Of a DNA stretch of 50,364 nucleotides, positions 218 through 8,397 are shown piece by piece (the stretch's first letter is position 1; every line of letters begins with the position of its first letter). The stretch covers positions 1-50,364 of the forward strand of contig MNCZ01000117.1 of assembly GCA_001914695.1 (NCBI GenBank). The letters are read 5' to 3'. The translations under genes and the position numbers were made by a program. The stretch comes from Gammaproteobacteria bacterium 13_2_20CM_66_19. GTDB lineage: Bacteria > Pseudomonadota > Gammaproteobacteria > Steroidobacterales > Steroidobacteraceae. The notes below the pieces were generated by a model. That model did no database searches, was not told where the DNA came from, and saw nothing but the letters and a program-made list of their open reading frames with translations.

Positions 218-655
218 ATGAACAGTTCGACACCCGTCGCGCCTGGCGGAGCGCGAGCGCCGAAGCTCTCCCACGCCCTCGTGGAGCCCTTTCGCGCGCG
301 GATTGCCTCCGGTGAGCTGAAGCCCGGAGATACGCTGCCGCCGGAATCGGAGCTCCTGCAGCAACTGCGCGTGTCACGACCCACGCTCCGACAGGCGTTG
401 CGCGTGCTGGAATCCGAGTCCCTGATCCAGCTTGGCAAGGGTGCGCGCACCGGCGCGACGGTGTTGCAGCCCAGCGGGGTGCAGCCAATCGCACGGCACA
501 GTGGTCGCCCCGCTGTTGGCCCAGCAGATGGGGGAGGAAATCGGCGTTCGTCGTGCCAAGAACGAGCGGCCCGGGACCGGCGTGCGCTATTTGCCTTGGT
601 TACTGCATGGTCGCGCGGAGCCGTAAAACTGCAACGACCACGCCGGTTATGCTAA
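218..655 (+). pseudogene. GntR (FadR-type) regulator, N-terminal winged helix only
   Basis: From the ATG at 218 the translation contains a clear GntR winged helix: a helix around SHALVEPFRARIASGELKPG, then TLPPESELLQQLRVSRPTLRQAL and LESESLIQL (about residues 15-70). After the wing, near VLQPSG, the frame carries about 60 residues that do not resemble the FadR or UxuR ligand-binding domain, then stops at 655. A GntR regulator is normally about 230-250 residues, so this is a truncated and probably frameshifted remnant. Its 3' end overlaps the end of the convergent PepSY gene, which supports decay. It is not expected to regulate normally. Confidence 0.6.
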
Positions 656-2069
656 AAGCCAGCCCGAGCGCAAGGGGGCCGAGGAGTGCGACGAGTCGCA
701 GGTTCGGATTAGCAGCCAGGCCGGGAAACTTGAACGTGTGCAAGGCGTAATAGAGCCACGCGTAGGTTTTGCGGCGCGCGTCCATGACGGCGACAAATCG
801 CCCAGACACTTGATCGACGTATACATCCATGGGCCGCCGCCCGGCCACATGGATGAGTCGCGTACCCGCGGTTACTCCCTCGGACAAGGGGTAAAGACTG
901 TCCTGACGAACTTCGCCACGATCTTCGATTCGTTGTCCCGGCCACGCGGCGCGTACGCCGCCAATTAGCCATGGCACCGGTATCTGGCTTAAGGATTCAC
1001 CGTCCGTTGCGTCAAGCCACGAGACGCGGGCCGCCAGGCCCGCCCCCCGTGCGACCAAGAAGGGTCTGCTGTTGATAGCACGGAATAGGATTTCGGTTGC
1101 GTCCCCACATGCTCGAATTCTTGACAGAGGCACTTCTTGAACAATGGATTCGAGAGATCTGCCTTGACCGCGAGACTCTTGTTCGCCGCTCGGCTTACCG
1201 CGGGGAAACAAACGTCCGTGGTCCATTGATAGCCAGCCACTGACAATCCAGGTGACAACGAAGGTCCCTGCGAACAAGCCGAGGCGGTGATGCCAACCGA
1301 GCCAGTTTCGGAACGGCGTTAGTCCCCGGCGGCGCGCACGACGCGCATCCGCAAAGCGGATCCAGCCCAGGAGTACTCCCGCTGCTGTTGAAAGGACTGC
1401 GGTCAATGAAACCCACCAGACGACTCGATCCCAAATGCTCCAGTGGATGCGAAGAGGACCAAAGTAAATCCAGTGAATGTTGGCGCCTAGCCAGTTCCAG
1501 ATACGCTGCGAGGCTGTCGTAAGCTGCAGCACTTCCCCCGTCCGAGCCGAAACGTATACCTGCGTGCCGGCGGTATCCGCAAACGTCACGCGGTAGAAAG
1601 GTCGGTATGGATCGTACTCTTGCGCGACCGTCCACTGGTCGTACGTCAACGGTCCTTCGATGCGTATCGGGATCGCCCTCTGGAACGTTAACGCAACCTG
1701 TCGCGCTTCGCCGCTCGACAATGTCAGTGGCAGACCGGTCTCCGCACTCGCCGCCACCGCGTCACTGTCTCCCGACTCGAGAACATAAGCGGGACGTCCC
1801 GCCATGTCCACCAAACGCATCTGTTTCGCCGTGGGATCAAGCGCGAGAACGGCTAGCGGAGTGACACGAACTCTCGAGACATCAATCTTGGCGCTGCGCT
1901 CGAGGCGTTCGACACTGGACAACTCGGGATATGGTACAAAATGAAGCACGACCCCGCTGGCGAACCACAAAGCGATCAATAGACAGAGCCCAACGCCAGC
2001 CCATCGGTGGAACAGCGCGCACCATCGCAGAGCGATGTGTGCAGTGCGCCGGAAGCTAGAACTTTCCAA
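600..2069 (-). CDS. PepSY-associated inner-membrane protein (PiuB-like)
   Basis: This 489-residue protein has the layout of PepSY-associated transmembrane proteins found beside siderophore receptors. An N-terminal helix starts at HRWAGVGLCLLIALWF and is followed by a periplasmic PepSY region with YVSARTGEVLQ. A second helix is near residue 215, a third at HHRLGLFAGTFVVTWIVSG, and the last at the C terminus after YYALHTFKFPGL. Members are proposed to reduce or process imported iron or other metal chelates at the inner membrane; that function is family knowledge, not proven here. The start is a TTG lying 14 bases inside the upstream receptor gene, with no strong ribosome site, so translation is probably coupled to the receptor. 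No in-frame ATG is available nearby. Confidence 0.8.
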   Translation of the reverse strand: MESSSFRRTAHIALRWCALFHRWAGVGLCLLIALWFASGVVLHFVPYPELSSVERLERSAKIDVSRVRVTPLAVLALDPTAKQMRLVDMAGRPAYVLESGDSDAVAASAETGLPLTLSSGEARQVALTFQRAIPIRIEGPLTYDQWTVAQEYDPYRPFYRVTFADTAGTQVYVSARTGEVLQLTTASQRIWNWLGANIHWIYFGPLRIHWSIWDRVVWWVSLTAVLSTAAGVLLGWIRFADARRARRRGLTPFRNWLGWHHRLGLFAGTFVVTWIVSGWLSMDHGRLFPRGKPSGEQESRGQGRSLESIVQEVPLSRIRACGDATEILFRAINSRPFLVARGAGLAARVSWLDATDGESLSQIPVPWLIGGVRAAWPGQRIEDRGEVRQDSLYPLSEGVTAGTRLIHVAGRRPMDVYVDQVSGRFVAVMDARRKTYAWLYYALHTFKFPGLAANPNLRLVALLGPLALGLAFSITGVVVAVLRLRATMQ

Positions 2070-4248
2070 CGAGGCTGACCGCGAAATTCCGCGGCTCTCC
2101 GAGCATTACTTCCGAGGGGTAGTAGACGTCTGCCCATTGGGCGTATGCCTTGTCTAATGCATTGTTGAGTCGTGCGGTCAGCAGCAGATTCGCCGTCAGC
2201 TTGTAGGATGCGTAAACGTCTACCAGCGCGTAGTCCAAGAGGACGATTGAATTTTGTGTATTCGCGTAACGCCGCCCGACGTAGCGAGCGCCACCACCTA
2301 CCTCAAGCGGCAGTCCTGCCACGTCGTGATAGCTCGTCCAGAGATTCCCCGTCCAACGCGGAATGTCTGCCGGCTGATGACCAGTGGCATCCAAGCCGGT
2401 ATTTGTGTCAATGAAATATCCATAGTATGAGTCCGTGTACGCAGCATTGGCACTCACCGTCCAATTTCGAGCGAGCTTAATATCGCCTGACAGTTCCACC
2501 CCACGCGACTTCTGATCCCCAATGTTGCTCACAGTGTTGATTGCCGTTTGCGTAAGAATATTTTTGCGGTCGATTGAATAGAGCGCGATCGTTCCATCTG
2601 CACTTTTGTCCGGAGTCTGCGCCTTGACCCCGACCTCGATCTGACTCGAGTGCGCCATCGAGAAGTTTTCATCGGAGTTAACCAGGATGATATCGGTCCC
2701 CACTGGATCCGCACCAGTGGTCCATGAAACGTACGGCGTCACGCTCTCATTCAGCTTGTAAACCGCCCCGACGCGGTAGTTTCCAGATTTGAACGTCTTT
2801 GTGAAACTGCTTGTCGGATCAAATATCCCATTCACATCGTAATTACGCCGATCCAGCGCCAGCTGATCATAGCGACCACCCGTAACTAGCTTAAGTTTGG
2901 GCGTTAGATCGAGGGCATCCTCAAAAAACACGGCGTAGTCATTCCAGCGAGTCGGACTTTGGCGAGGCTGAATCGGCCCGAATTGGCCAGGCGATGGGTT
3001 GAACGGGTCAACGCTGTCGCCGTTGGGAAATCCACGACTGCGAACGAAGTTAAGATGGCTATAGTCCGCGCCCAACACAACAGTGTTCGGCAACCCGAGG
3101 AGCTTACCGCGCACTGTCCCATCGACCTGATCCCCGTAAAGGTTCTGACGGTGGAACACAAAAAATCGATCGCGATCGATCAGTTGCGTTACGGGATCGA
3201 ACGTATAGGTTTCCGCATCGATCCAGTGCCGGTGGGCGTGAAAGTAGTAGGTGAAGTTTTGGATCGTCAGATTTTCTGTCGGGCGCCATTTCAACAGCAG
3301 TTGTGGCCAATACTGCGACGAGTCAATGCTAGAGTCGGCCACGTTGTAATTCACAAAGCGCATCCGCTCATCAATGGCAAGACCGGATGCCCGATCGATC
3401 ACACCGCTTAGCGGGTGGGTCGCGAACGACAACGGCACAAACGGGGTACCAAAGTAGCGCGACGGGTTGTCTTCGAGGTAGTCCAATGTGATTTGCACAT
3501 CAAGCGTCGCGGACACGCGCCATAGTGCCGTTGCAGTGACATTGGTTGAATTGGCCGATGCTCCTGCGACGTAGCCGTCAGTAGAGGTACGGCTCACATC
3601 GGCGCGAATCGCCACAGCGTCACTGAAGTGGGTCGTGCCACCGATGCCCAGGTTCCTATTGCCAAATGATCCTGCTGAGGTCAAGAAATCGAGGCGCGAC
3701 GCATCAAAGCGCGGTCCCTTGCTGACGACATTTACGGCGCCCGCCACGGCGCCCTGTCCGTACAAAACGGAGGCGGGCCCCTTGAGAATCTCGACGCTCG
3801 CCAAATTGAACGTATTTTGGGGCCGGTTGGTAATGTTCGCGGGCCCAATGTAAAGGCCGTTATAGAGACTCACTATCTGGTCGCCAGTGAACCCGCGCAT
3901 GGAAAACTGTTCAAGGTCGCCGGGTGAACCGCCCGACGTCACGCCGGGTAAGCTGTCCGCCGCCTCCTCCACGCTGGAGAACCCTCTTCCGAGCATTTCG
4001 TCAGAATCAATAACGTCAAGAGATCCTGGTGTTTCGAGCGCGCTTAGGCCCAAACGACTCCCTGTTGGCGTAAATTGCTCGAGCGATCGCACCTTTGACG
4101 CCGTGACTGTCACCTCCTCCAATTGAGTTTGCGTATCAGTGGAGGCAGCGCTCTTTACTTCTGGGGATGAAGTAACTACCGTTTGCGCCCCGAGCGGGAG
4201 CGACGCGCCACAAGCTGCGAGTACCAAGCAAAGGCCGATTAGCTTCAC
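2056..4248 (-). CDS. TonB-dependent siderophore-type outer-membrane receptor
   Basis: The protein is about 730 residues. It has an N-terminal export signal, a TonB-box-like EEVTVTAS, then a plug domain with DSLPGV, the SMRGF motif and VEILKGPASVLYGQGAVAGAVN. A long beta-barrel follows and ends in ...SLVGKF, a C-terminal Phe typical of BAM substrates. It should import a metal chelate or siderophore using TonB energy; the ligand cannot be read from sequence. I chose a GTG start at 4248 because GGGGAG lies at the right distance and the signal peptide then starts directly with KLIGLCLVLAAC. An ATG 14 codons upstream has no such support. The signal peptide contains a lipobox-like LAAC, although cleavage after PLGA is also possible. 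It lies 65 bases downstream of the ATPase and overlaps the PepSY gene. Confidence 0.88.
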   Translation of the reverse strand: MKLIGLCLVLAACGASLPLGAQTVVTSSPEVKSAASTDTQTQLEEVTVTASKVRSLEQFTPTGSRLGLSALETPGSLDVIDSDEMLGRGFSSVEEAADSLPGVTSGGSPGDLEQFSMRGFTGDQIVSLYNGLYIGPANITNRPQNTFNLASVEILKGPASVLYGQGAVAGAVNVVSKGPRFDASRLDFLTSAGSFGNRNLGIGGTTHFSDAVAIRADVSRTSTDGYVAGASANSTNVTATALWRVSATLDVQITLDYLEDNPSRYFGTPFVPLSFATHPLSGVIDRASGLAIDERMRFVNYNVADSSIDSSQYWPQLLLKWRPTENLTIQNFTYYFHAHRHWIDAETYTFDPVTQLIDRDRFFVFHRQNLYGDQVDGTVRGKLLGLPNTVVLGADYSHLNFVRSRGFPNGDSVDPFNPSPGQFGPIQPRQSPTRWNDYAVFFEDALDLTPKLKLVTGGRYDQLALDRRNYDVNGIFDPTSSFTKTFKSGNYRVGAVYKLNESVTPYVSWTTGADPVGTDIILVNSDENFSMAHSSQIEVGVKAQTPDKSADGTIALYSIDRKNILTQTAINTVSNIGDQKSRGVELSGDIKLARNWTVSANAAYTDSYYGYFIDTNTGLDATGHQPADIPRWTGNLWTSYHDVAGLPLEVGGGARYVGRRYANTQNSIVLLDYALVDVYASYKLTANLLLTARLNNALDKAYAQWADVYYPSEVMLGEPRNFAVSLVGKF

Positions 4249-4313
4249 GATGACTCCCCTTGTCCACGTAAGAATTGATTCCCCGGTCAAACACCGCGCT
4301 AGCCATCCTTCTA

Positions 4314-6341
4314 TTAGGATGGCGCCTGTACCACGGCCGGGTCGGGGGGCGAGTGCCTTACCGGCATCGGCCCCTCCTCGCTTGATTGAGACGGAAGCAG
4401 TCGCGCGGAATTCAGAATAAACGCGAGCTCGGATGCCACGTGAATGAAGGCCGCGAACAACGGGTTGAGGAGACCGAACGCTGCAAGGCCGATGCCGACC
4501 GCGTCCACTCCAATCGTGCCAACAAAATTAGCCCTGATGATTCTGCGCGTGCGGTGCGCGATGCTCAGTGTCTCGGCAAATTTCACCAAATCGTTCCCGA
4601 GTAGCACGACATCTGCGCTCTCGCGCGCGACATCGGTACCCGAGCCCATTGCCACGCCTACCTGGGCTTCGATCAACGCCGGCGCGTCATTGATCCCATC
4701 CCCGACCATCGCCACAGTGCGTCCTTCAGCGACCAGCTCCCTGATGCGCATTCGCTTGTCTTCGGGCAGCAAATCGGCTGCGACCTCGGAAATGCCGAGG
4801 TCCCGGGCAATTACGCTGGCAACGGCTTGCGCGTCACCGGTCAGGAGAATCGTCTTAATTCCCATCGAGTGGATCGCTTTGATCGCGGAAGCCGCCTCCG
4901 CGCGAACCGTGTCGGCGATTGCGATCGCGCCGAGCAACTTGCCGCCCCGTGCCACGAAGACCTCCGAGGCCTCGGGGTGACGGCCAAGCACATTGCCGGG
5001 CACTGCGATATCGTGGTCGTGCATGAGCGCTTGGTTACCGACCAGAACGAGCTCACCACCTAGCACAGCATCGATGCCGTGTCCGGGCGTGTAGCCGAAT
5101 CGCTCTGGCTCCTTGAGAATGCTTTCGAGGGCTCTGGCCTGCGCGACGATCGTCTTGCCCAGCGGATGCTCTGAGCGAAGCTCCGCCGATGCAGCGGTAG
5201 CCAGGAGCCCGGCGGCGTCGACTCCCCCCATGGGAATGAGGGCACGGATCTCCGGCTTGCCGTATGTGAGCGTGCCGGTCTTGTCCAGCACGACCGTGTT
5301 CACCTGGCCAAGTTGCTCCAGAAACAGGCCACCTTTTATGATCGCGCCGGCGCGCGCCGCACGACCGATAGCGCCGAGAATCGCGAGCGGCGTGCCGGCC
5401 GCGATACCGCACGCACCCGCCACGATGACCACCGAGATCGTCGAGCGGATGTCGCGCGTCAGCAGATAGGTCAATGCCGCGGCCCCGAGCGCGAAATAAA
5501 CGAGATACCCCGCTAGGCGATCCGCAAGGCGTTGAACCGGAGCGCGCGAACGCTCGGCTTGCTCCACCGCCTCGATGATCTTGCCGTAACTCGTATCCCG
5601 GCCAATCCGCTCGGCGCGGATTTCAAGCGCGCCGGACTGATTGATGGAGCCGGCGAACACGGGCGAGCCAGCTGTCTTCTCGAGCGGCATCGATTCGCCG
5701 GTAATGCGGGCTTGATCGACGAATGAGTGACCGGCGATTACCGTGCCATCCACCGGGATTCGTCCGCCGGGGTTCACCAGAACGGCATCGCCGACGGCAA
5801 GTGCGTCGGTATCCACCTCCGCAACGGCTCCCCCGCGGCGGACGGACACCGCGCGGGGCAAAAAGTCCAGCAGATCACGGATCGCGCGCCGCCCCCGAGA
5901 CACGGTCATGCCCTCCAGCACCTCCGCGATCAACACGAACAGGGTGATTACGAGCGCGGTGAAGAATTCCGAAATGGCGGCGGCCGCGATGATGGCGATC
6001 GACATGGACAGTTCCATGGTCATTCGCTTTGCGACGAGGTTCTCCACCGCCTCCTTGAAGATGGGCCAGCCGCCTATGGCCAAGCCCAGCATGCCGATGA
6101 GGCTGATAGCCGGGAATGGCTCCCATAGGCGCCACCAAACAGCCGCCGCCGCTACGGCCACAAGACCTATGCGCAGCGTCTCAGCCCATTCCCATGCGTG
6201 GTCGTGACCTTCGTTATGCTCGTGACTTTCCCCATGACCTTGATCAAGGGCGTTCGCATCGTGTCCGTGGGCGGCCGGAACGGTCGTGCGTTGGAGCGCT
6301 TGCTCCGCCAAGTCGGAAAACACGTCGTCCCGCGTGCTCAT
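4314..6341 (-). CDS. P1B-like heavy-metal P-type ATPase with GAC motif and His-rich N terminus
   Basis: This 675-residue protein should pump a transition-metal ion across the inner membrane using ATP. Visible motifs are TGES (214-217), the phosphorylation site DKTGT (D353), the P1B-specific HP pair (392-393) and GDGIND (547-552). The N terminus has no HMA domain but carries seven His between residues 25 and 48. The membrane metal site is unusual: where CPC or SPC is expected the protein reads GAC (309-311), followed by GTPLAI. The last helix reads HVASE (634-638), at the place where P1B-4 pumps have HEGGT-like residues. The start at 6341 is supported by GGGAGC seven bases upstream; a longer in-frame reading only shadows the sensor gene. 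It follows the sensor by 32 bases. The substrate is not settled; the sensor suggests nickel or cobalt. Confidence 0.88.
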   Translation of the reverse strand: MSTRDDVFSDLAEQALQRTTVPAAHGHDANALDQGHGESHEHNEGHDHAWEWAETLRIGLVAVAAAAVWWRLWEPFPAISLIGMLGLAIGGWPIFKEAVENLVAKRMTMELSMSIAIIAAAAISEFFTALVITLFVLIAEVLEGMTVSRGRRAIRDLLDFLPRAVSVRRGGAVAEVDTDALAVGDAVLVNPGGRIPVDGTVIAGHSFVDQARITGESMPLEKTAGSPVFAGSINQSGALEIRAERIGRDTSYGKIIEAVEQAERSRAPVQRLADRLAGYLVYFALGAAALTYLLTRDIRSTISVVIVAGACGIAAGTPLAILGAIGRAARAGAIIKGGLFLEQLGQVNTVVLDKTGTLTYGKPEIRALIPMGGVDAAGLLATAASAELRSEHPLGKTIVAQARALESILKEPERFGYTPGHGIDAVLGGELVLVGNQALMHDHDIAVPGNVLGRHPEASEVFVARGGKLLGAIAIADTVRAEAASAIKAIHSMGIKTILLTGDAQAVASVIARDLGISEVAADLLPEDKRMRIRELVAEGRTVAMVGDGINDAPALIEAQVGVAMGSGTDVARESADVVLLGNDLVKFAETLSIAHRTRRIIRANFVGTIGVDAVGIGLAAFGLLNPLFAAFIHVASELAFILNSARLLPSQSSEEGPMPVRHSPPDPAVVQAPS

Positions 6342-6373
6342 AAATAGCTCCCGGTCCAAGTCAATCAACGTTA

Positions 6374-6652
6374 TTACCGCAGGTAGGCCCGAACGATCTC
6401 GACAAGCTCGTCGGCGCCTTTGGTGCGACTGGCGTTGCTGGTGATGGACGGACTTGCGACATGGGTGCGCAGATGCTCCTCGATCACCTCCGTCATAAGT
6501 CCGTTCGCCGCTCCGCGGAACGCCGCGATCTGCTGCATGATCTCCGCGCAACCCTTCTCGGCCTCCAGCGCGCGCTCCAGCGCCTCCACTTGCCCGCGGA
6601 TACGCCGCACACGGGCAAGTAAGCTCGCCTTATTCCTGATCGTATGGCTCAT
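6374..6652 (-). CDS. RcnR/CsoR-family metal-sensing repressor
   Basis: This 92-residue all-helical DUF156 protein resembles RcnR and FrmR over its full length (RVRRIRGQVEALERAL, QQIAAFRGAANGLM). Members bind operator DNA until metal, or formaldehyde for FrmR, binds. The metal fingerprint residues are His3, Cys35, His60 and His64, with an N terminus reading MSHTIR. That is the RcnR set for Ni(II)/Co(II); FrmR has Glu at position 64 and CsoR lacks His3. The C-terminal end looks more FrmR-like, so the metal is a prediction. It is first in a run with the ATPase, receptor and PepSY genes, and a matching inverted repeat lies 18 bases upstream of its start. Confidence 0.88.
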   Translation of the reverse strand: MSHTIRNKASLLARVRRIRGQVEALERALEAEKGCAEIMQQIAAFRGAANGLMTEVIEEHLRTHVASPSITSNASRTKGADELVEIVRAYLR

Positions 6653-6669
6653 GTCCGAAAAGCCCTTAT

Positions 6670-6687
6670 ACTGTACCGGGGTATAGT
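6670..6687. promoter_or_regulatory. Candidate RcnR/CsoR operator
   Basis: The sequence ACTGTACC-GG-GGTATAGT is an 8-2-8 inverted repeat with one mismatch and a G/C core flanked by A/T arms, the general form of CsoR/RcnR-family operators. It lies 18 bases upstream of the repressor start. On the minus strand it overlaps a possible -10 element TATAAG at 6665-6670, so binding there would block transcription of the sensor operon. Autoregulation is inferred from form and position only. Confidence 0.55.
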
Positions 6688-6788
6688 AACCGCATCGGCT
6701 TCCCGGGTGAACCCCCCTTCTTGCGCACCGGAGTCTTGCAGCCTGCCTTTACTTGGGCGAGACCCAGTTCCACCGTTCGTCCCGTCAC

Positions 6789-6802
6789 GCGCTTATAAGC
6801 GC
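6789..6802. repeat. 14-bp perfect palindrome, copy 1 (upstream of recombinase)
   Basis: GCGCTTATAAGCGC is a perfect palindrome located 47 bases upstream of the recombinase ATG. The same palindrome recurs at the end of the recombinase gene. There is no loop, so it is more likely a protein-binding site than a terminator. It may be an arm site for the recombinase or a directionality factor, or an operator for the gene. Confidence 0.6.
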
Positions 6803-6849
6803 AGGTCGTCACGGCGGGGCTTTCCGCTGCCCATTCGAGGAGTCTCATC

Positions 6850-8200
6850 ATGCAAGCCTTCATCGGTGCGCCGCTGCTCTCGAGCAAAGAAACCCGGCCT
6901 CAAAGCAAACCGTTTGAGATATACGATTGCCGCCTCCCCGGCTTCACGTTGAGGGTGCAGCCCAGCGGCGTCCGATCCTATTACGCACGGTTCGGTCGAA
7001 ATCGGCGCGTTGCATTAGGCCATGCGGGGTCGATCGAACCCGATGAGGCGCGGGAGAGGTGTCAGGTCGTCCTCGGTAATATGGCGCATGGCCGCCATCC
7101 GTTGCACGGTCTCGGCGGAACAGACGGCATCACGCTTGGAATGTTCATCGCCGACACATACACGACGTGGGTCCACGCCAGCCGTCCGCGCACAGCCGCT
7201 GACACGCTCGAGAAACTGCATCGGCACTTCAGAACGTGGTACCCAGAACCGCTCACTGCCATTACGGTTGAACGCGTTGAGGCGTGGAAGGTGCGGCGCC
7301 TGAATGAAGGCCGCAACCCCCGTGACTGTCGTGCGCGATCTCTACACGCTCTCCAGCGTGCTCAGACGCGCAGTGAAAGCCGGTGAACTGAGGGAAAATC
7401 CTGTGCGGCGCGTCGACAAGCCGCGCGTTGATCGCAGAGGCAAGGTGCGCTTTCTTGATCAGGCCGAGGAAACGCGACTGCGGCAGGCACTGAAGGCGCG
7501 CGATGAGGAAATGCGCAATCGGCGCACATTCGCCAACAACCGTCGGGAAACACGGCACGAGTGGACACGCCCTCCGCTGACTCACTTTGGCGATCACCTG
7601 ACGCCCGCCGTGCTGCTATCTATGAACACGGGACTGCGGCGCGGCGAGGCCGTCAAGCTGCGTTGGAGTTCCGTGGACTTCAACCGTCAGCTTCTCACCG
7701 TCGAGGGCCGGAACGCCAAAAATCGCCAGACTCGACGTGTGCCGCTCAACGAGGAAGCCCTGAGCGTGCTGCGGAGCTGGCGTGAACAGTCCGGAACTGG
7801 AATGCGCGTCTTTGGTGTCACGATCGGATTTCAGACGGCATGGGAAAAGGTGCTTAGGCGAGCCAGGATCAGCAAATTCCGCTGGCACGATCTGCGACAT
7901 CACTTCGCCTCGCGCCTCGTCCAGCAGGGCGTTCCGCTGAATACAGTGCGTGATCTACTAGGCCACGGCTCCGTCGGCATGTCGCTGCGCTATGCGCACC
8001 TTGCGCCCGATCAGCGGCGCGAAGCCGTCGCGAAACTCAATGAAAGGCCGCTTCTTACTCTCACTATGCGCCTTCAGTGGGAAGGCCTTCCGGTAGCAAG
8101 CGGCTACCGCGTTGATTCGATCGTGGTTAGGGAGGGACAGGAACTAGCCAGCCAAATTCCGCTTTCTGGGAATCTGCCGGTCTTGGAGTTGCGCTTATAA
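6850..8200 (+). pseudogene. Tyrosine recombinase (phage/island integrase), frameshifted
   Basis: Two overlapping frames together make one integrase of about 450 residues. The first (from the ATG at 6850, with GAGGAG eight bases upstream) gives an arm-binding domain containing RLPGFTLRVQPSGVRSYY, then a core-binding region ending VEAWKVRRLNEGRN. The second continues with VTVVRDLYTLSSVLRRAVKAG and the catalytic domain: TGLRRGE (Arg), a Lys near NAKNRQTRR, HDLRHHFAS (His and Arg), LGHGS (His) and YAHLAPDQ (Tyr). All catalytic residues are present. Removing one C from the C5 run at 7317-7321 restores a single frame reading ...LNEGRNPVTVVRDL. It is therefore a recent frameshift or a sequencing error. 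Confidence 0.85.
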
Positions 8201-8205
8201 GCGCA
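8190..8205. repeat. 16-bp perfect palindrome, copy 2 (end of recombinase)
   Basis: TGCGCTTATAAGCGCA is a perfect 16-base palindrome containing the same 14-base core as the copy at 6789-6802. Its TAA is the stop codon of the recombinase. The two copies therefore bracket the recombinase gene almost exactly. Confidence 0.65.
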
Positions 8206-8320: not shown

Positions 8321-8397
8321 TGGTGGAAAGGGAGGGACTCGAACCCTCGACCCCGGCATTATGAGTGCCGTGCTCTAACCAGCTGAGCTACCTTTCC
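8321..8397 (-). tRNA. tRNA-Met (CAT anticodon)
   Basis: The reverse complement folds as a complete 77-nt tRNA: acceptor GGAAAGG paired with CCTTTCC, discriminator A and encoded CCA, D arm GCTCAGCTGGTTAGAGC, anticodon arm with CTCATAA, and T arm GAGGGTTCGAGTCCCTC. The CAT anticodon, with ACTCATAATG and GGGGTC in the variable region, resembles elongator tRNA-Met more than lysidine tRNA-Ile2, but the latter cannot be fully excluded. Its 3' end faces the recombinase and probably forms the island attachment site. Confidence 0.93.

Follow-up and report, generated by a model that had tools for sequence, protein, structure and literature searches.

A metal sensor that may join export of one metal to uptake of another in a four-gene unit of a Steroidobacteraceae bacterium

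The window analysed here is one entire contig (MNCZ01000117.1, G000:C46; 50,364 nucleotides) of Gammaproteobacteria bacterium 13_2_20CM_66_19, whose 3.1 Mb draft genome is 82.6% complete; the view ends at base 1. Between positions 600 and 6652, four minus-strand genes recognised from open frames and Pfam matches encode a metal sensor, a P-type ATPase, a TonB-dependent receptor and a PepSY_TM protein. Metal-excess sensors of the CsoR/RcnR family are known to control export, and uptake receptors are known to answer starvation. We read the four genes as an operon that responds to an excess of nickel or cobalt and combines export with a compensating import of the chelate of a redox metal, and we place the probability of this reading at roughly 40%. 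A metal-flooded bacterium may, on this reading, switch on the uptake of another metal.

One operator-like site precedes four closely spaced genes

The open frames confirm the row of genes that an earlier note, made from the sequence without database searches, had described: 32 bases (6342–6373) separate the sensor from the ATPase, 65 bases (4249–4313) separate the ATPase from the receptor, and the receptor and PepSY genes overlap by 14 bases (2056–2069). The first codon of the receptor frame is TTG at 4290, and the likely start is instead GTG at 4248, favoured by a signal peptide and by a GGGGAG motif ahead of it. The region upstream of the sensor gene contains TACTATACCCCGGTACAGTAT, and the same kind of site is found in nearly all relatives. 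With 26 sensor loci at hand, one (L103) lacked a start-anchored match, which gave 25 upstream regions, and another (L139) stood outside the matrix set, so that 24 regions were examined; an operator-like site is present in 23 of them (weak in L119, inverted in L117) and none in L118. The matrix was built from 22 of these regions, window included, whose matches are thus by construction, and the scans of the window and genome appear to lend the more independent support. In the 50 kb window the site at 6667–6690 scores best at 29.0 (20.2 on the other strand), the runner-up place reaches 8.1, and the matrix scan gave no second strong site, including before the receptor. The same site is the sole match with at most two mismatches in the draft genome, in which the reversed-pattern control yields 0. 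In G321, another genome of the genus, a similar operator-like site, TACTATACCCCCCTATAGTAT, lies ahead of a sensor–CDF pair (L173), which is the dmeRF arrangement; the reversed-pattern control yields one match there.

A promoter scan showed no promoter-like site between the four genes, a silence that weighs little because the scan was also blank before the sensor. Before the receptor, the best Fur-box match within 4249–4448 was 9/19, equalled by 197 of 200 shuffles, and the best score within 4201–4420 was 11, equalled by 145 of 500 random sequences; matches before the sensor were likewise at chance level. The Fur site or separate promoter in front of the receptor that, according to the earlier note, would speak against a joint unit was therefore not found above chance in the window. 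The hairpin that spans the ATPase stop codon (Table 1) was considered as a possible stop or attenuator of transcription ahead of the receptor and rejected, as it has no T run, an ordinary z-score and no terminator-like match. The single operator-like site, the short gaps and a receptor upstream region free of promoter-like and Fur-like sites make it very probable that the four genes constitute one unit under one DmeR-type sensor. The earlier note's proposal of a single sensor-controlled unit is upheld to this extent, and the four genes would be co-transcribed.

Table 1 Features of the four-gene unit and its surroundings in the window.
Feature	Position	Strand	Evidence and remarks
DmeR/RcnR-like metal sensor, 92 aa	6374..6652	-	ATG; Trns_repr_metal PF02583 2.6e-23
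Heavy-metal-type P-type ATPase, 675 aa	4314..6341	-	ATG; E1-E2_ATPase 5.6e-45, Hydrolase 1.6e-32
TonB-dependent receptor	2056..4248	-	TonB barrel 1.1e-49, Plug 1.1e-21
PepSY_TM protein, 489 aa	600..2069	-	TTG; PF03929 2.8e-12
Operator-like site GTTACTATACCCCGGTACAGTATA	6667..6690	-	14 bases ahead of sensor ATG
8-bp hairpin spanning the ATPase stop codon, without T run	4302..4323	-	fold; region z-score -1.1 (not unusual)
Tyrosine integrase, two overlapping frames (6850-7386, 7304-8200)	6850..8200	+	Arm-DNA-bind_3 and Phage_integrase; context only
tRNA-Met (cat), likely integration site	8321..8397	-	ARAGORN; context only

The sensor resembles DmeR

The sensor carries the pattern His3-Cys35-His60-His64 (HCHH), which occurs in all 26 rows counted, window included; the tally leaves aside L173, whose slice begins one codon early, and the sensor tree was made without L103 and L139. 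A review describes HCHH as the RcnR-like fingerprint, also found in DmeR, and assigns it to the nickel- and cobalt-responsive RcnR and DmeR; it presents DmeR as a nickel/cobalt-responsive protein that binds AT-rich inverted repeats. The earlier note had called the sensor RcnR-like. The family and the HCHH pattern bear this out, but the Glu34 and Glu63 of Escherichia coli RcnR are absent, and DmeR-like appears to be the better name because the dmeF-linked sensor of Ideonella, with Gly34 and Ser63, also lacks both. This Ideonella protein is the nearest plasmid relative (70.7% identity) and directly precedes dmeF; in a Massilia plasmid relative dmeF follows after one small gene, and the plasmid search named dmeF under the match in five further rows. 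Like the dmeRF operon, the unit has an HCHH sensor first, immediately upstream of it an AT-rich inverted repeat that contains a C/G tract, and a metal exporter next; it differs in that a P-type ATPase replaces the CDF protein DmeF after the sensor, and in that a receptor and a PepSY_TM protein are added downstream.

Nickel or cobalt is the probable effector, as far as the sensor's sequence and its relatives can tell. A response to formaldehyde, zinc or iron instead would agree with the NCBIfam scores, in which the FrmR model exceeds the RcnR model (104.9 against 83.0 bits, both below the cut-off), with FrmR as the nearest solved structure and with the iron- or redox-type neighbours of a 60%-identical branch of the ATPase described below. 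We consider such an effector quite improbable: the sensor has His64, the residue that is reported to give FrmR a response to cobalt and zinc, the HCHH pattern is constant among the rows, two of the three sensor relatives that were opened precede dmeF, and no sensor was matched in the 60% ATPase branch itself (L120, L121 and L144).

The receptor and PepSY protein resemble a copper-chelate import pair

When compared with solved structures, the receptor matched 9rvq at 5e-78, and the runner-up reached 1.5e-36. Entries 9RVQ and 9RVX are CrtA (BfrG) of Bordetella pertussis, which is described as an importer of low selectivity that takes up copper bound to small carboxylate chelators (PMC12914433); its operon is given as cruR-crtA-bp2921, the last gene encoding the PepSY_TM protein CrpH (PMC12914433, PMC13038864). 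A PepSY_TM gene comes next in over 75% of CrtA-type loci and CruR comes first in over 40% (PMC12914433). The present receptor gene is directly followed by a PepSY_TM gene, as in most of those loci. The receptor–CrtA match of 5e-78 comes from a direct pairwise comparison, and the CrtA similarity cluster is defined at a threshold of 180. Among the six residues of the CrtA pocket, the receptor keeps E337, H358 and R395, whereas W265 is replaced by F, Q356 by V and Y130 by P. The equivalent of His358, essential in CrtA, is invariant in 17 of 17 aligned receptors, two of which lie beside iron ABC genes, and it is for that reason no marker of copper.

In the PepSY protein, H21, H199, H260 and H444 are present in 9/9 rows of one alignment and 7/7 of another, the two alignments overlapping in that both include the window and L113. 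CrpH is reported to require H200 and H444 (PMC13038864), and H199 and H444 stand at nearly the same residue numbers; this is a comparison by number only. By analogy with CrpH/FoxB-type PepSY_TM reductases, which have four histidines as haem ligands, the PepSY protein would be a haem-bearing reductase, and chelate import plus reduction is rather likely as the role of the pair. The resemblance to cruR-crtA-crpH thus comprises the immediate succession of receptor and PepSY_TM protein, the kept essential histidine of the receptor and the four invariant PepSY histidines. The unit differs in having an excess sensor rather than a starvation switch, in half of the pocket residues and in the absence of CruR: the gap ahead of the receptor is 65 bases, and no small open reading frame with CxxC and a late Pro-Pro was found in the window or in L113.

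This resemblance raises the alternative that the pair is a CrtA–CrpH-type importer and reductase and that the operon restores copper to oxidases under a competing metal. CrtA is the nearest solved receptor, CrpH is the named PepSY_TM prototype from the same kind of operon, a DUF2946 (CruR-like) gene lies ahead of the more distant relatives L147 and Comamonas with a similar open reading frame, without Pfam match, in L146, and a paralogue of the ATPase in the same genome lies behind a DUF2946-like gene and a receptor (see below). The replacement of three of the six pocket residues, the His358 equivalents beside iron ABC genes, and FecI/FecR at two nearer relatives (45 and 48% identity), though not at the nearest, G205 (55%), which has no recognised regulator, speak against copper, and we regard this alternative as improbable. 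Iron would most likely be the imported metal, a preference that rests on FecI/FecR beside two near relatives and on precedents in Agrobacterium and Caulobacter; copper keeps some probability because the best-studied relatives serve it.

The earlier note had also suggested that the exported metal's own chelate is retrieved. In such a cycle the pair would take back and process that chelate or a chelator, as the co-location and the low selectivity reported for CrtA would allow. Uptake during excess would, however, cancel export, and a gene for making a chelator is not among the four. A haem reductase would, to our knowledge, be of no use for Ni(II). Beyond co-location nothing was found in favour of such re-import, the chelate of another redox metal fits a haem-reductase partner better, and we think the cycle very improbable.

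The ATPase belongs to a branch without the CPx motif

The ATPase is of the heavy-metal type (TIGR01525, 8.4e-162), and its best-scoring solved chains are CopA. It shares with the P1B-type ATPases (CopA, ZntA and the Cd family) the family and the DKTGT, TGES and HP motifs; DKTGT and SEHPL are both present in the alignment rows. It differs in its His-rich N-terminus, in which no HMA domain was matched in the window protein, and in transmembrane helix 4 (TM4), which has GAC at the aligned position of the CPC of CopA. GAC is found in 31/31 rows, made up of 25 loci of the genus, the window among them, together with five plasmids and one further genome, and TM4 throughout this branch (for example the window, L004 and L099–L144) reads AGACG(I/V)AAGTPLA, without a CPx motif. 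In TM6, FIHVxSE is present in 27 of the 28 rows that cover this helix, and L120 has VIHVGSE. The branch offers a test of whether the CPx motif is necessary for metal transport. General P-type ATPases that came up in the contig search with the ATPase query (at least 80, at up to 42% identity) were not used as relatives.

At E ≤ 1e-150 and with the window genome counted, the ATPase occurs in 23 of 58 genus genomes and in 12 of 296 genomes of the order sample, all of the latter from this genus. It was found in 2/398 genomes of the phylum sample (1e-180; own genome counted), in 1/369 of the class sample (1e-190), which is the window genome itself, and on 5 of 72,556 plasmid records (1e-100). A sensor gene adjoins the ATPase in 23/25 genus loci, two of which (L103 and L139) look degenerate, and in 26/31 loci overall; sensor and pump are an old pair in the genus. 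The other neighbours vary. A divergent CDF gene is present at 4/31 loci (a short form in L100), and at 5/31 a CzcA-type query matched an RND gene within 4 kb, both counts being lower bounds as some contigs end early; a candidate divergent CDF gene at three more loci proved to be an unrelated 73-residue protein. HupE/UreJ genes lie beside the ATPase on two plasmids. In the 60–61% branch (L120, L121 and L144) the neighbours are VIT1, a PepSY_TM–flavodoxin protein with ApbE, a ferric reductase-like protein and cytochrome b561.

The genome holds a paralogue on another contig (C125; L004 2868–7477), an ATPase 84% identical that lies 57 bases behind another TonB receptor. A small DUF2946-like protein (2.7e-4, under the cut-off) with CxxC and a late Pro-Pro precedes that receptor, an arrangement resembling, in sequence terms, a cruR–receptor cassette; the window receptor gave no match to the C125 receptor at 1e-6. 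In the ATPase tree, calculated without the partial L110, the window protein groups with the C125 paralogue (99/95) and then with G321 (94/89), and all three adjoin a receptor. The C125-type receptor is present in 26/58 genus genomes: with the thresholds applied, 20 lack this ATPase, five carry it on a different contig, and the window genome alone has both on one contig.

The two gene pairs meet in two genomes

At E ≤ 1e-40, two of the 58 genus genomes yielded the receptor, those of the window and of G321, and in both the receptor–PepSY pair adjoins the sensor–ATPase pair, lying downstream of it in the window and divergent from it in G321 with 217 bases between. The earlier note had set store by recurrence of the four-gene order across genomes; the adjacency recurs, but the order does not. 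The window and G321 proteins are 60% (receptor), 46% (PepSY), 68% (sensor) and 83% (ATPase) identical, so that neither locus is a recent copy of the other. In the receptor tree the two sensor-linked receptors stand together (100/99) with G205 as sister. The association is, in our judgement and with no formal probability computed, above chance.

Outside the genus the pair travels in other company. The receptor is present in 9/296 genomes of the order sample (1e-90; own genome included) and in 4/369 of the class sample (1e-80). At most 18, 3 and 2 receptor candidates were scored per genome in the genus, order and class samples, respectively, and absences there are incomplete; neighbour genes were judged by eye except where a Pfam match is given. 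A PepSY gene adjoins the receptor in seven of the eight other order genomes, and the eighth (L198) reaches the contig end. Upstream of the pair, two of these eight have FecI/FecR, one (G024) has a DUF2946-like open reading frame without Pfam match and five have nothing recognised. The statement in the earlier note that receptor–PepSY pairs usually belong to Fur-type uptake holds in part: iron ABC genes neighbour two receptor relatives, and a weak Fur-box candidate (14/19, a score that 6 of 200 shuffles reached; eight regions were tested in all) occurs upstream of L197 and again in the near-identical upstream region of L198, but other relatives follow FecI/FecR, a DUF2946 gene or nothing recognised. 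The receptor–PepSY pair is thus a portable module that was placed beside a DmeR-type sensor.

Several observations weigh against the proposed nickel/cobalt-excess operon. The association is seen in only two genomes with different arrangements and may reflect one event. The G321 receptor lies outside the sensor transcript and would hence have its own promoter, and the operator-like site there lies at a distance of 173 bases from the earliest start codon in the receptor frame, which leaves sensor control unsure. Neither sensor nor ATPase was matched in the 9 to 16.5 kb read around the eight order-sample receptors, and the three class-sample loci besides the window (one being G024 again) have PepSY without sensor or ATPase. 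The promoter scan is blank before the sensor too, with 2 sites in 8.5 kb against 2.6 expected. The sensor has Gly34 and Thr63 in place of the two glutamates of RcnR, and no dmeF is annotated near its Microvirga relative (60.9%). With CPx absent, the motif would give neither the metal nor the transport direction of the ATPase, and copper, not iron, is the metal of the closest receptor and reductase that have been characterised.

The unit lies beside an integrase and a tRNA gene

The tyrosine integrase is situated between the four genes and tRNA-Met and is flanked by a perfect 15-base repeat, GCGCTTATAAGCGCA (6789–6803 and 8191–8205). The G+C content is 55% in the receptor gene, 60% in the PepSY gene and 63% in sensor and ATPase, and it rises to 70% in the contig past 8.4 kb; the first 9 kb range from 54 to 65% and the following 11 kb from 66 to 73%. 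The region looks like an island at tRNA-Met whose far end lies off the contig.

This setting underlies the principal alternative, that a foreign receptor–PepSY pair came to lie behind sensor and ATPase in an island at a tRNA gene, where it is transcribed by read-through or from its own signals, with no joint task. It accords with the integrase and tRNA-Met beside the operon, with the lower G+C content of receptor and PepSY genes and with seven order-relative loci in which the receptor occurs without sensor or ATPase. A receptor of the same subfamily nevertheless meets the same sensor–ATPase pair in G321, and the link seems older than the rearrangement because the G321 pair has diverged (60%/46%) and is differently oriented. 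We hold chance company in an island to be rather unlikely.

Proposed mechanism and relation to known systems

In the proposed nickel/cobalt-excess operon, a DmeR/RcnR-type repressor would hold one operon silent through the single operator-like site at 6667–6690 and would leave the DNA most likely when the cytoplasm contains too much Ni(II) or Co(II). Release would yield more repressor together with a P-type ATPase for removal of the metal from the cytoplasm. At the same time it would yield a TonB-dependent transporter that carries a redox metal in chelated form, most likely Fe(III) and possibly Cu(II), into the periplasm, where the haem-bearing PepSY_TM reductase would free the chelated metal by reduction. 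The receptor–PepSY pair would in this way offset the iron (or copper) starvation and the mis-metalation that an excess of nickel or cobalt brings. We infer the metals, the haem, the direction of transport and the purpose, and compensation as the purpose is put forward tentatively.

Precedents exist for such a connection. According to the review, iron-responsive genes are switched on under cobalt stress, and Agrobacterium depends on its iron regulator RirA to withstand nickel and cobalt. In Caulobacter crescentus, the iron receptor CciT is described as required for copper resistance (PMC12004943). The CciT–CciO system is thus alike in that an iron-importing receptor protects against the excess of another metal, and it differs in that the partner of CciT is an oxygenase rather than a reductase and that the source, as far as it describes the operon, names no pump or sensor in it (PMC12004943).

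Each of the parts belongs to a known kind; their combination is a variant, and so is the ATPase branch. Neither a DmeR/RcnR operon that includes a receptor and a PepSY gene nor a GAC-type ATPase branch appeared among the open-licence PMC titles and abstracts listed, which is weak evidence of absence as most subscription literature lies outside that scope. If the proposed operon is real, it represents natural wiring by which the excess of one metal directly calls for the uptake of another, and the link between nickel/cobalt toxicity and iron limitation becomes a testable genetic circuit. A more specific proposal, which we consider doubtful, is a feed-forward cross-metal circuit in which one nickel/cobalt sensor and one transcript couple the export of a toxic metal to import and haem-driven reduction of a different metal's chelate, the exporter being from a group of heavy-metal P-type ATPases that work without CPx and lie, at some loci, with receptors or membrane haem reductases. 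The cell would then refill iron (or copper) ahead of starvation.

Additional observations

At window 218–655 there is a GntR-family N-terminal domain, with no second domain matched and the frame apparently broken downstream. A GntR-type gene next to both copies (window 218 and L113 5307) was considered as synteny and set aside, the alignment of the two stretches having no long conserved block. On another contig of the same genome (C40; L003 1501–1590), a stretch of 30 residues matches the ATPase near its C-terminus at 83% identity; nothing else matches there, and the stretch is perhaps a remnant. At L144 (8665–16192), a PepSY_TM domain fused to flavodoxin and NAD domains is followed by ApbE and then by the ATPase and VIT1, a further co-occurrence of PepSY_TM with this ATPase branch. 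On a Sphingobium plasmid (L181, 3902–10040), a receptor and a 'peptidase' (PepSY-like) form a pair that faces, in convergent orientation, the genes of a cation efflux protein and a 'cation transporter'.

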